From positions 1-25,546 of IMG/VR virus record IMGVR_UViG_3300010293_000035: DNA of 25,546 nucleotides; one strand, written 5' to 3'. The notes beneath the pieces are model-generated. The model worked only from the letters and a program-made list of their open reading frames with translations, ran no database searches and had not been told where the DNA came from. This DNA comes from a virus. A program made the translations under genes and the position numbers. Of the stretch, positions 16,928 through 20,962 are shown piece after piece (position 1 is the first letter of the stretch; each line of letters starts with the position of its first letter).

Positions 16928-17494
16928 TCAGCGAATGAGAGCGGTGAACTCGGACCTCGCCGATTCGCTTGTCATGAAGATGCCACGAAGGGCACTCGTG
17001 ACCGTCTGCTGGCCTTGTGTAGCGACCCCACGACTCTCCATGCACAAGTGACGGCAGCGGAGTACCACGGCCACCCCAAGCGGCTCCAGATTCTTCTGCA
17101 AGGCATCAGCAATCTGATTGCCGAGGCGCTCTTGCACTTGCAGGCGGCGTGCGAAGACTCGTGACACGCGAGTCAGCTTGCTGAGGCCCACCACTTTCCC
17201 TTGCGGAATGTATCCGATGTCAGCGACTCCGAAGAACGGAGCGAGGTGGTGTTCGCAATGCGAGTAGATGGGTATGTCGCGGACGACAACCAGTTGGCTG
17301 TGTTGGCCGACATAGTGTTCAGCACCGTCCTCGAACACCTTGAGGACGCTCTCCACGTCCTCGTCGTATCCACCGAACCACTCGCCCCAAGCCTTCGCGA
17401 CGCGCTTCGGTGTCTCTTCGAGTCCACCTCGTGCCACAGGTTCGATGAGTCGCACCAAAGCGGAGGCGATCACCAGAGCAGCCTTGTCGTTCAT
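16928..17494 (-). CDS. folE: GTP cyclohydrolase I
   Basis: 188 residues from ATG 17494, overlapping the QueE stop (ATGA). FolE opens GTP to 7,8-dihydroneopterin triphosphate, the first step of 7-deazaguanine (and folate) synthesis. Family motifs are clear: ETPKRVAKAW near residue 27, IPIYSHCEHHLAPFFG with zinc ligands C80 and H83, GYIPQGKVVGLSKL, RLQVQERLGNQIA and RHLCMESRGV with the third zinc ligand C151. The length is the normal bacterial size. In this cassette it supplies substrate for QueD. It is the most downstream gene of the modification set and abuts the terminase genes. Confidence 0.95.
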   Translation of the reverse strand: MNDKAALVIASALVRLIEPVARGGLEETPKRVAKAWGEWFGGYDEDVESVLKVFEDGAEHYVGQHSQLVVVRDIPIYSHCEHHLAPFFGVADIGYIPQGKVVGLSKLTRVSRVFARRLQVQERLGNQIADALQKNLEPLGVAVVLRCRHLCMESRGVATQGQQTVTSALRGIFMTSESARSEFTALIR

Positions 17495-18153
17495 TCCAGC
17501 CCCATCAGCTTGTGGGTTTGCAGACTCAGACGCCAGCCGGCCAAGTCGGGATTGGAAAGCAGTTCCTGCGCTGCGACCCAGCAGTCACGAGAGGCAGACA
17601 CCTCTCCTTTGCCGTGTGTCACGTCGATGGGCTGGATGAAGTGGGCATCGGCTTTGATGCCGACAGTCTCAGGATTGACAGTCCGCCCGTCCGGTGTCGG
17701 GAGCCACGGCCACAAGAGCTTCAGCGTGTGGCAGTAGCCGAGGATGAGGTTGTCCAGCGTCTTCGGAGAGCAGACGATGTGGATGCTCGCCACGCGCCGG
17801 AACTTCGGTGACACGGTGCCATTGGTTTCCACGTTGATCTTGAAGTAGAGTGCTCGCAGACGGTCGACGAGGGGCTGATCGAGTTGCAGCAGCGGCTCTC
17901 CGCCCGTGAAGGTGACGCTTCGAATGTGGCCTGCCGCGTTGCGGATGCGGTCCACCAGTTCATCCAAGGTGTCGGAGAAGTTCCGCTTGAAGTTGGTGTC
18001 ACAGATGCGGCACTTGGCTTCGGCGCGATGGTGTTCGTTGCCGTCCCAGAGGTTGCAGCCAGCGAAGCGGACGAACACGGTCGGCTCCCCGGCTTTCGAT
18101 CCCTCGCCTTGGATGCTGAGGAACACGCTGGTCAAGTGATAGCGGTCGCTCAT
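17491..18153 (-). CDS. queE: 7-carboxy-7-deazaguanine synthase (radical SAM)
   Basis: 220 residues from ATG 18153, overlapping QueD's stop (ATGA) with GGAGG nine bases before. QueE contracts 6-carboxytetrahydropterin to CDG using a [4Fe-4S] cluster and SAM. Visible: IQGEGSKAGEPTVFVRF at residues 14-30, the cluster motif C33-x14-C48-x2-C51 (the extended C-x14-C-x2-C form known for Burkholderia QueE), TFTGGEPLLQ (SAM-binding GGEP at ~84-87), NVETNGT and CSPK. All key residues are present. CDG would be the last product made by the genes visible here, since QueC is absent. Confidence 0.95.
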   Translation of the reverse strand: MSDRYHLTSVFLSIQGEGSKAGEPTVFVRFAGCNLWDGNEHHRAEAKCRICDTNFKRNFSDTLDELVDRIRNAAGHIRSVTFTGGEPLLQLDQPLVDRLRALYFKINVETNGTVSPKFRRVASIHIVCSPKTLDNLILGYCHTLKLLWPWLPTPDGRTVNPETVGIKADAHFIQPIDVTHGKGEVSASRDCWVAAQELLSNPDLAGWRLSLQTHKLMGLE

Positions 18154-18617
18154 GCTGTGGCACCTCCGTGTCGCGGCAACATCATCTCCTCGGCGTTGTC
18201 CAAGGAGCAGGACGCGACGCAGTTCTCAGTCTCCTCGATCTCCACACGGATGCACACGCAACCCAGCGGGCCAAGTAGGTCGGGCAGCACATCACAGAGC
18301 AGATGCTCGGCCATGCCCTCGGCGGTCGGCGGGCCTTCCGGCATGATGTAGCGACGCATGTCCATCGAGTCGATGAGGTTCAACACATCTCGATCGGTCC
18401 GGTCGGCGATGAAAGCGTGATCCCAGTTCTCGTCAATCCACCCCTTCACGGCCCGCTTCACGTCGGCGAAGTCGAGAACCATGCCCTCCTTCGTCTCGGG
18501 TGCCACGATGGTGACACGGAGGACGTAGTTGTGGCCGTGGAGGTTGCGGCATCCGCCCTTGTGCAGCGGGAGTCGGTGCCCAGCACAGAACGGGATGCGT
18601 CGGGTGATCGTCAGCAT
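18150..18617 (-). CDS. queD: 6-carboxy-5,6,7,8-tetrahydropterin synthase
   Basis: 155 residues from ATG 18617 with AAAGGGG seven bases before; the frame extends upstream, but that part is a shadow of the transporter gene. QueD converts dihydroneopterin triphosphate to carboxytetrahydropterin. Zinc ligands are H14 (FCAGHRL) and H27/H29 (LHGHNY), and the catalytic Cys is C23 (HKGGCRNLHGH). VLDFADVKRAVKGWIDE, DHAF, GPPTAEGMAEHL and EIEETENC complete the family pattern. It overlaps the transporter stop by seven bases. Confidence 0.93.
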   Translation of the reverse strand: MLTITRRIPFCAGHRLPLHKGGCRNLHGHNYVLRVTIVAPETKEGMVLDFADVKRAVKGWIDENWDHAFIADRTDRDVLNLIDSMDMRRYIMPEGPPTAEGMAEHLLCDVLPDLLGPLGCVCIRVEIEETENCVASCSLDNAEEMMLPRHGGATA

Positions 18618-19123
18618 GTTTGGCCCCTTTTGGTTTTGGTGACACGGGTGAGAATGAAGACCCAAGCAACGCCACCGACGAACTTGTAAGCCCACTGCTG
18701 GATTGAAAGCGCAGGGACGATGACAGCGAAAGCGACGAGCGGGAACACCACGGAATCGACAGCCGCAGAAGCAGCGTTCGAGGCGTTCATCCGCCACGCC
18801 CTGCTTCTGTTACTGAGGCCGTGGTACACAAAGGCGTCAGCGGCTCCAGCGGCAGCGAAGCTCACGAACGAGGCGACGGCGACACGCCATGAGTAGGGGT
18901 TCGCGAGCATGGAGAACACCGACCCTCCAGCCACCAGCATTGCCATCCGGCTCCACAACGAAGGCCCTCGCCACCTCTCGTGCAGCGTGTCACGAACCGT
19001 GAGGTCGAATGGTATCAACACGAAAGCGGTGAACGGGAGCGCAGACTGGCCGTAGGTGTTGACAACCATGTTCGCAGCTACCGCCGATGATAGATAGAGA
19101 ACGATGATCCACGCGGTGTTCAT
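18611..19123 (-). CDS. Queuosine-precursor transporter (YhhQ/VUT family)
   Basis: 170 residues from ATG 19123, with GGAGG seven bases upstream. The protein is an integral membrane protein with about five to six hydrophobic segments: IIVLYLSSAVAANMVVNTY, LPFTAFVLIPFDL, MAMLVAGGSVFSMLA, VASFVSFAAAGAADAFVYHG, DSVVFPLVAFAVIVPALS and YKFVGGVAWVFILTRV. FDLTVRDTLHERW between segments two and three, and MNASNAASAAVDSVVFP, fit the YhhQ/VUT family, which imports preQ0 or preQ1. It sits inside the deazaguanine cassette, between QueD and the QueD-like gene. This would let the phage take up free precursor through the host inner membrane. Confidence 0.78.
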   Translation of the reverse strand: MNTAWIIVLYLSSAVAANMVVNTYGQSALPFTAFVLIPFDLTVRDTLHERWRGPSLWSRMAMLVAGGSVFSMLANPYSWRVAVASFVSFAAAGAADAFVYHGLSNRSRAWRMNASNAASAAVDSVVFPLVAFAVIVPALSIQQWAYKFVGGVAWVFILTRVTKTKRGQTC

Positions 19124-19467
19124 CGGAAAGCCTCCACCCTTGCGCCGTGAGCGTGGTCCTCCCAAACCTCGCACGCCGTGTCACAGCCACACATCGACCC
19201 CATCGCTTCCATGATGTTCCGCGCCCACGTCTCGCACGACCAGCGAGGCGTCTCGCTGTTGTCACGCAACAGGCCTCGGATCACAGCGTCGAGTCGTTCA
19301 CGAACGTCGTGGAACTCAAGCTCTCTCTCTTCGTGTGACACCACAGCCTCGAATCGAACACGGAAAGCGTGGAAGTGCTGACACCTCAAGTAGGCTCGAT
19401 GGTCGGGTGCGGTTGTCCACGCATGTGAAGCGAAGAACTCGGTGGCGACGATGATTCTCGTGTTCAT
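19120..19467 (-). CDS. Second, divergent QueD-like (T-fold) protein
   Basis: 115 residues from ATG 19467, overlapping the DpdA stop (ATGA). Pattern parallels QueD: FFASH with H15 as first zinc ligand, then RCQHFHAF with C29 and H31/H33 as candidate catalytic Cys and zinc ligands, EERELEFHDVRERLDAVI (like the DF-x2-VK segment), SCETWARNIMEAM (like PTAENLA) and CEVWEDHAHGARVE (like the final Glu motif). The Cys-to-His spacing is C-x-H rather than C-x3-H. The family resemblance is seen by eye. It may carry out a step on CDG or another pterin/deazaguanine intermediate; a duplicate QueD is the plain alternative. Confidence 0.65.
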   Translation of the reverse strand: MNTRIIVATEFFASHAWTTAPDHRAYLRCQHFHAFRVRFEAVVSHEERELEFHDVRERLDAVIRGLLRDNSETPRWSCETWARNIMEAMGSMCGCDTACEVWEDHAHGARVEAFR

Positions 19468-20378
19468 TCGAACGGGCTCCTCACTTCTTCTTCGGCTTCG
19501 AAGAGATAGCGTCCGATTTTGGTGTGGCACATCGCATTGAACACGCGAACACCATAGCGGCTGAACATGAAACGAGAGTAGCGGATGTTCGACCTCAACG
19601 TGACACGGCCCATGATGTTTTCATCCTTGGGTTCATCCTTGCCTCCAGAGAGCTTTCGAAACTCATCTGGAAGCCTGTGATGGCTGCTCCCATAGCGGTT
19701 CGATTGCTTTTCGAGATCAGCAGATGTGACACCCATTGTCGCCAACGCTCTCCTCTGTGAGAGCGTCAACGGAATTCTCTTGAACACCTTGCCGCTCGGC
19801 CTCTCGGTGTCGAAAACTCCACCGCCCGTGTAGACTGTGAGAAGTCCATAGCGGTAGCCGCTCACCGCGTTCGACGAGTCGCACGAATAGGGCCGGAACC
19901 TGCAGAGCATGTCGTGATTGGTGTAGCCGAGCCAATGAACTCGCCGACCTCTTGACCACGAGTGCTTGAGTGCCACATAGGACTTCGGCGAATGCAGTCG
20001 GTGTGGCCTTCGCAGTCCAGCAAGTGCCACGTACTCGCTGAACTCGAAAAGCTCATCGAGACGCTGCTCGTCGTCTCCCCACACATGAATGGGGACGGGC
20101 TTCAGCCCTTCGGACAACATGACACGGAGGTTCTCTGCTGTCGCCTCGGGATTGCCAACCACATCGAGCGCCATGTAGCCGTGAAGGTAGCTGCCCCACT
20201 TGTGCAAGAAGGCCATGTAGTCGTCGAGCTTGATCGTCCATCCAGCGTTGAGTGCTGTGAATCCACCGCTGTCGAGGAGCCACAAGAACCCCGGCCTCTC
20301 GAACATGGCCTGCAGCGTTTCGTCAGGAAGGTCGCCGAAGTAGGCGTAGCTGATGAGAACATGGTTGGGGTCTTGCAT
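19464..20378 (-). CDS. dpdA: DNA guanine transglycosylase, DpdA type
   Basis: 304 residues from ATG 20378, coupled to the ParB-like stop (TGATG); a GTG nine codons upstream is less likely. It is related to tRNA-guanine transglycosylases, which swap guanine for a 7-deazaguanine. Motifs: LLDSGGFTAL (D36, general base region, ~34-43), YMALDVVGNP, PIHVWGDDEQ, VALAGLRR, RVHWLGYT and SCDSSN with D167 as candidate nucleophile. The C-terminal part (SNIRYSRFMF, ACN-type zinc site not visible) is basic. The zinc-binding C-x-C-x2-C cluster of tRNA TGT was not seen, as expected for DNA-acting DpdA proteins. It would insert the modified base after replication. Confidence 0.85.
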   Translation of the reverse strand: MQDPNHVLISYAYFGDLPDETLQAMFERPGFLWLLDSGGFTALNAGWTIKLDDYMAFLHKWGSYLHGYMALDVVGNPEATAENLRVMLSEGLKPVPIHVWGDDEQRLDELFEFSEYVALAGLRRPHRLHSPKSYVALKHSWSRGRRVHWLGYTNHDMLCRFRPYSCDSSNAVSGYRYGLLTVYTGGGVFDTERPSGKVFKRIPLTLSQRRALATMGVTSADLEKQSNRYGSSHHRLPDEFRKLSGGKDEPKDENIMGRVTLRSNIRYSRFMFSRYGVRVFNAMCHTKIGRYLFEAEEEVRSPFE

Positions 20379-20962
20379 CAGTAGAGAACCACCTTGAAGC
20401 CCCACCCATTCTGCTCCATCGTGTCACGGATTGCGGACTCGACTTCACTTCCGAGGTTCTGTGGGATGCCTTCGATCTTCACGCTTTTCGTGTCACTTGT
20501 TGGGTCGTAGGGTTCAATGTCCAGCTTGGCCGGATGCCGGGAGGTGCCAGCGATGAGTTCATCGATGTCCCTTTCGCTGAAACCAGTCGCCGCCAACAGG
20601 TCGTCTTCGAGCTTCTGGATCGTTGCCGCAAGCGAGCCGAAATCCCACTCGGCAAGCTCGGCGGTTCGGTTGTCCGCGATGGCGTATGCAACAGCCTCGC
20701 TCCCCGATAGCCTGCTGCGTGCCACATCGATCTCCACCCACCCCAACGCACGAGCCGCGATGAGTGTGCCGTTGCCAGCGATCACCACGTTGTCGGCCCC
20801 GACCACGATGGGACGCTGCTGGCCGAAGCGGGCGAGGCTCCCCTTGATGGCTTCGAGATTCCGCTCGTTGTGTTGCCTGAGGTTGCTGGGGTCGATGATG
20901 AGGGAGTCGGTCGCCACTCGCTCCACAACCACGGCGTCTTGTTTCTTGCCTGTCTTCGCCAT
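20378..20962 (-). CDS. ParB/sulfiredoxin-like domain protein next to DpdA
   Basis: 194 residues from ATG 20962, with GAGGG eight bases upstream and GTGACAC directly against the ATG. The N-terminal ~120 residues form the ParB/Srx fold: NLRQHNER (27-34), GQQRPIVV (47-54), IAGNGTLIAARALGW (61-75) and ADNRTAELAEWD (96-107). The AGNG-type motif replaces the GERR of partition ParB proteins, as in phage ParB domains linked with DNA modification. No DNA-binding helix-turn-helix is obvious after it. The C-terminus contains IRDTMEQNGWGFKVVLY. Bacterial DpdB, partner of DpdA, is also reported to be ParB-like, so a partner role is plausible. An independent nuclease or methylase-associated role is the alternative. 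Confidence 0.75.
   Translation of the reverse strand: MAKTGKKQDAVVVERVATDSLIIDPSNLRQHNERNLEAIKGSLARFGQQRPIVVGADNVVIAGNGTLIAARALGWVEIDVARSRLSGSEAVAYAIADNRTAELAEWDFGSLAATIQKLEDDLLAATGFSERDIDELIAGTSRHPAKLDIEPYDPTSDTKSVKIEGIPQNLGSEVESAIRDTMEQNGWGFKVVLY

Follow-up and report, generated by a model that had tools for sequence, protein, structure and literature searches.

A virus-specific QueD-like protein family that probably takes the place of QueC in phage 7-deazaguanine DNA modification cassettes

A small viral T-fold protein, here called X, probably acts after QueE and in place of QueC in phage 7-deazaguanine DNA modification cassettes. On balance, sequence comparison and a structural model favour X being a zinc-dependent enzyme built on the QueD/PTPS fold that is used after QueE instead of QueC, with decarboxylation of 7-carboxy-7-deazaguanine (CDG) as its most likely reaction. 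Such a role would assign a function, and a reaction that can be tested, to phage proteins annotated as unknown, and would explain why many phages have FolE, QueD, QueE and DpdA yet no QueC. If it is correct, the final DNA base should be predictable from gene content, that is, from the presence of X versus QueC.

Gene array containing X

X lies in the window, by which we mean the whole stretch of DNA analysed, 25,546 nt long (IMG/VR virus record IMGVR_UViG_3300010293_000035, positions 1 to 25,546). It belongs to a minus-strand array in which each junction is a stop/start overlap. In array order, the genes encode a ParB-like protein (20378..20962; phrog_620, E 9.5e-33), a DpdA-type DNA guanine transglycosylase (19464..20378; phrog_887, E 4.6e-28), X itself (19120..19467; 115 aa), which is the proposed CDG-processing enzyme standing in for QueC, a VUT/YhhQ-type queuosine-precursor transporter (18611..19123; PF02592, 41.9 bits), a canonical QueD (6-carboxytetrahydropterin synthase, 18150..18617; PF01242, E = 8.6e-29), QueE (CDG synthase, a radical SAM enzyme, 17491..18153; TIGR04508, 150 bits; phrog_2076) and FolE (GTP cyclohydrolase I, 16928..17494; PF01227, E 3e-63). 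The ParB-like gene overlaps the start of DpdA, which has an ATG at 20378 and a reading frame open to a GTG at 20405. With DpdA and the precursor-synthesis genes FolE, QueE and QueD in one array, the locus is a DpdA-dependent 7-deazaguanine DNA modification cassette.

A reading made from the sequence alone had described a 115-residue protein that starts within the stop of DpdA, with a normal QueD in the same operon. The reading frame (19467..19120, minus strand), its ATGA overlap with DpdA and the QueD gene are all confirmed, and the stop of X also overlaps the transporter start; X is translationally coupled within the array. A chance reading frame is rejected given 68 homologs. The window's DpdA has no sequence match in the PDB, and a defence-system reading of the locus found no match in PADLOC.

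A longer contig (G001, IMGVR_UViG_3300025115_000033, 36,472 bp) contains the window at 100% identity and makes ~11 kb of extra flank readable. No QueC was found in the window array or in this contig, and the idea of a QueC hidden elsewhere on the contig is rejected.

The X family and its fold

X scores 12.7 bits against PF01242 (PTPS/QueD), below the cut-off of 22.4, and matches phrog_17812 (annotated 'unknown function' in PHROGs v4) with an E-value of 4.7e-8. This PHROG is matched by 68/68 non-redundant viral X homologs, namely the window X and 67 sequences from IMG/VR, which together form our alignment. The window X belongs to the same family as phrog_17812 and is a divergent copy (~30% identity); it departs from the family at two near-invariant sites, Arg32 (Phe in the window) and Glu106 (Ala), which counts against the favoured reading.

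The family is virus-specific. It comprises at least 90 viral loci in all, at least 80 of them in a profile scan of IMG/VR, and the profile scan of ~85,000 prokaryotic genomes gave only 4 loci. Searches with X and two relatives returned homologs in Pseudomonas PA5oct-like, Acidovorax ACP17, Xanthomonas X1 and Cellulophaga phiST phages, and further homologs come from Vibrio, Aeromonas, Rhizobium, Sinorhizobium, Synechococcus, Chryseobacterium and Faecalibacterium phages. X cassettes were also seen on contigs binned to archaea (L097 and L099, Methanoperedenaceae/Methanosarcinales MAGs) and to Bacteroides (L096); these contigs are probably viral despite the binning. No recognised DpdA was found near X in L097 or L099.

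The AlphaFold model of X, built from the 68 sequences, has a pLDDT of 92.8 and the order beta-alpha-beta-alpha-alpha-beta-beta. Its closest solved structures are QueD/PTPS enzymes (Foldseek E 5e-5; Z 12.9 for 2dj6/4ntk), with an rmsd of 2.6-2.7 over 105-113 residues, followed by QueF-like archaeosine synthase (Z 10.3), dihydroneopterin aldolase and GTP cyclohydrolase I. When the profiles of X and QueD are aligned with each other, the E-value is 1e-5. The T-fold that was suspected from the letters, and for which structure prediction had been named as a check, is thus borne out by the model, with QueD as the nearest match. The QueD-like order of motifs noted at the same time also holds: FASH (H15), HFH (H31, H33), EF (E51-F52), SCE (77-79) and a late Glu (E103).

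Fifteen alignment columns are invariant in 68/68 sequences: H15, L27, H31, H33, F35, V43, H45, R48, E51, F52, S77-C78-E79, E103 and D104. His15 (codon 19423..19425, minus strand) aligns with a zinc-binding His of QueD and is the first predicted zinc ligand; in the His-Phe-His of codons 31-33 (19369..19377, minus strand), H31 and H33 are predicted to be the second and third, so that the three-histidine zinc site of QueD appears to be matched in X. Ser-Cys-Glu at codons 77-79 (19231..19239, minus strand) aligns with P-T-x-E of QueD, and Glu103 (19159..19161, minus strand) with the Glu that anchors the pterin. X and QueD (PF01242, TIGR03367) are therefore alike in the T-fold, the His zinc triad, the E-F/D-F strand motif, SCE versus PTxE and the late base-binding Glu.

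The catalytic residues of QueD are a Cys and an Asp-His pair, and the window QueD has both (Cys24 and Asp67-His68). In X, by contrast, the catalytic Cys, four residues before H-x-H, is replaced by Leu27 (codon 19387..19389, minus strand) in 68/68 sequences, and the Asp-His loop that precedes PTxE is a gap in both profile alignments. The C-x-H-x-H motif with shortened spacing that had been noted in the sequence is misleading: its Cys29 occurs in 1/68 sequences, the window copy only, and is rejected as a QueD-type catalytic Cys; it is Leu27 that aligns with that residue. X is a T-fold protein for which a zinc site is predicted; it seems to have kept base recognition and to have lost the chemistry of CPH4 synthase.

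Since the QueD catalytic residues are lost in 68/68 sequences, X does not duplicate QueD. It is not a member of QueD at all, as it lacks three defining features (the catalytic Cys, the Asp-His pair and a PF01242 score above the cut-off); moreover, it is restricted to viruses, occurs alongside a genuine QueD and excludes QueC. The sequence-only reading was wrong in calling X a duplicated enzyme. With ~20% identity to QueD and a viral-only distribution, X belongs to an ancient separate family, and a fresh copy of the adjacent QueD is rejected.

X and QueC across viral genomes

In a sample of 50 X-bearing records (5 complete phages and 45 contigs), QueE was found in 47/50, QueD in 37/50 and QueC above the cut-off in 0/50; many of the 13 records without QueD are fragments. 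Controls were viral contigs gathered by QueD, with X not considered. QueC occurred in 1/12 X-bearing versus 30/38 X-free records among 50 control records (46 QueD-anchored contigs plus phages 9g, CAjan, nt-1 and Dp-1; Fisher test, P = 2e-5), and in 1/19 versus 47/61 among 80 QueD-anchored loci (P = 2e-8); lineages are not independent and IMG/VR contigs may be incomplete, so that these Fisher values overstate the association and the DpdA tree described below is the fairer test. Phages 9g, CAjan, nt-1 and Dp-1, whose DNA modifications derive from preQ0 (measured dG+/dPreQ0/dPreQ1) (PMC6884629), have QueC and lack X.

The earlier proposal that X may make the final base, for instance from CDG, was accompanied by the suggestion to look for X in QueC-less cassettes. 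The strong association of X with such cassettes supports this pathway position well. Nor is X equally common in phages without deazaguanine genes, given the QueE counts above and DpdA in 83/91 X loci. QueC or Gat-QueC (in 9g, CAjan, Dp-1 and nt-1) and X would occupy the same slot of the pathway, after QueE and before DpdA. However, QueC is a PP-loop ATPase with a fold unrelated to that of X, and the two almost never occur together.

Among the first nine records scanned, QueC scored once, in Vibrio phage D479. The match is to a partial PP-loop protein next to a nicotinamide phosphoribosyltransferase (25.8 bits for NCBIfam QueC, versus 150) and is rejected as an exception. Also rejected is L171, where the supposed X resembles the family only weakly and lacks the SCE motif. 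In L161 (G074), which has X, the QueC match is fragmentary, at 17.6 bits (29 when neighbours are included).

On a tree of 77 DpdA proteins, X has taken the place of QueC at least five times. Presence of X requires 6 changes on this tree, at least 5 of which are forced by supported branches, and in all five independent pairs QueC switches opposite to X (p = 0.06 from the pairs test alone). The window DpdA falls within a supported set of four, together with L109 and L116, which have X, and L141, which has QueC. In Cellulophaga phage phiST (X, no QueC) and its close counterpart Flavobacterium immuto_2-6A (QueC and QueF, X not found), the QueE proteins are 76% identical.

These distributions also bear on a role for X upstream of QueE, as an alternative or auxiliary QueD that would act on a pterin (H2NTP or CPH4). 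Such a role would suit the QueD-like fold and the 13/50 X-bearing records that show no QueD. We consider it extremely unlikely, because 68/68 sequences lack the Cys and Asp/His that QueD uses for catalysis, canonical QueD is also present in most of the large X-bearing records, and the loss of QueC would be left unexplained. In addition, Faecalibacterium phage Roos carries X without QueE or QueD.

Candidate reaction and partner enzymes

In the pathway we propose, FolE, QueD and QueE would make CDG, and X would convert it into the base that DpdA swaps for guanine in phage DNA. X would most likely do so by removing the carboxyl group of CDG, which would leave 7-deazaguanine and, after insertion, dDG in the DNA. 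In this scheme Glu103 grips the base at its 2-amino-4-oxo edge, Arg48 and the zinc bound by His15/His31/His33 position the carboxylate, and either His45 or Cys78 would be the proton donor to C7. We infer CDG as the substrate, its decarboxylation and these residue roles; decarboxylation is favoured because it needs no cofactor, because the fold binds 2-amino-4-oxo rings with zinc beside the position of the side chain, and because the product is a base that DpdA could insert.

A paper by Cui et al. 2023 (NAR 51:9214, doi 10.1093/nar/gkad657) is cited in PMC12783734. Cui et al. reportedly found both dDG and dCDG in the DNA of phages and proposed that a protein named DpdL decarboxylates CDG. DpdL is expected in the context of FolE, QueD, QueE and DpdA without QueC, with a nitrile-free product, and the context of X is alike. 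X is likely to be DpdL, or else a relative or a different protein. If it is DpdL, its function has been proposed in print before, and the present analysis contributes the fold, the comparison of residues, the switch between QueC and X, and the partner genes.

The DpdA proteins found within the stretch analysed in 83 of 91 X loci fall into four sequence groups: 9g-like (25), nt-1-like (20), a 420-residue group (8) and a 500-residue group (30). Proteins of the last group have no Pfam, PHROG or PDB sequence match and a TGT-like predicted fold (pLDDT 86). This DpdA-like group of 500-550 aa, with a DSGGFQ motif (35 X loci, among them L078:4940-6466), was found only in X loci. A DpdA3 profile was compared with seven records, namely immuto_2-6A and six X records that lack a local DpdA3, and gave no match, so that it points to no transglycosylase for Phosso, Bakedbeans and a few contigs. 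As four different transglycosylase groups accompany X, it appears to track the type of base and not the inserting enzyme.

The same observation weakens the idea that X is a base-binding partner or carrier that hands CDG (or another deazaguanine) to DpdA, in which case CDG would be inserted directly, as dCDG. X does adjoin DpdA directly in many loci, and it stays with DpdA and the transporter where FolE, QueD and QueE are absent. However, a carrier would have to serve four unrelated-looking transglycosylase groups, and the invariant zinc triad and acidic/Cys motifs point to catalysis; we regard a carrier role as distinctly improbable.

Minimal cassettes of this kind are seen in Roos (L003, a complete 54-kb genome), which has X, DpdA and the transporter and lacks FolE, QueD, QueE and QueC, and in the fragments L024, L035 and L098 (X, DpdA and the VUT transporter, with no FolE, QueD or QueE). 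Hence, the substrate in these phages would have to be host-made or imported, which counts against the favoured reading. In the QueD-anchored control loci, the VUT/YhhQ transporter occurs in 7/19 loci with X versus 0/61 without, the loci concerned coming from related lineages. The control loci with this transporter are L108, L109, L110, L116, L134, L140 and L158.

An imported or host-made base, as implied by the transporter-only cassettes of Roos, L024, L035 and L098, would suit a different assignment of X, namely as a T-fold enzyme distantly related to QueF that uses a nitrile or amide deazaguanine from the host, and a QueF-like archaeosine synthase is one of the structures that rank next after QueD/PTPS. 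Yet QueD/PTPS fits the model better (Z 12.9 versus 10.3), and X phages, being without QueC, make no nitrile themselves. This assignment seems very unlikely to us.

In 56/91 X loci (e.g. L019:6773-7906), X has a GT4-like glycosyltransferase in its neighbourhood, never together with an nt-1-like DpdA. Among QueD-anchored control loci it occurs in 9/19 with X versus 0/61 without (P = 4e-7), and it is found in none of the QueC loci. In a search of 50,697 phage records with this glycosyltransferase, the first 16 matches were all X-bearing. No such glycosyltransferase was found in 35/91 X loci, in any of the 20 DpdA2-type loci or in the window. In L066 (9353-10261), L138 (448-1227) and L139 (6643-7440), X is fused behind an N-terminus resembling PIG-L/LmbE de-N-acetylases, a sub-threshold Pfam match, with L138 and L139 near-identical. 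The X frame of L138 and L139 (G060/G061) contains one in-frame TGA, which may represent read-through, recoding or a boundary effect.

The glycosyltransferase linkage suggests, from gene neighbourhood, that a glycosylated 7-deazaguanine is present in the DNA of these phages. Why X should be accompanied by a glycosyltransferase family and by a PIG-L-like fusion is not obvious if the product is bare 7-deazaguanine, and this counts against decarboxylation. Accordingly, X might act on CDG in place of QueC without decarboxylating it, making another group that serves as an acceptor, for example for glycosylation; the glycosyltransferase counts and the PIG-L-like fusions are in line with such a reaction. 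We nevertheless consider it unlikely. The X loci that have no glycosyltransferase, the window among them, imply that the product of X must also serve as an end product, and a glycosyltransferase could use C7 of 7-deazaguanine or another base.

Decarboxylation of CDG thus remains our preferred reaction for X. More tentatively, X may catalyse the committing step of a widespread branch of phage DNA modification that runs without QueC, and the product of X would often be glycosylated in DNA by the GT4-like glycosyltransferase and in some phages processed by PIG-L-like deacetylation. Phages PA5oct, ACP17, X1, BUCT-ZZ01 and Phosso likely belong to a glycosylated branch, which bears on resistance to restriction and CRISPR. 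In the literature searched, we found no report of the linkage to a dedicated glycosyltransferase, of X fused to PIG-L, of the fourth TGT-like group, of repeated switching between QueC and X, or of sugar-bearing 7-deazaguanine in phage DNA. A radical SAM protein of ~460 aa is found near X in some DpdA1-type loci (L027:5508-6887, and L021, L026, L029, L040, L056 and L057), where a further modification of the base is possible.
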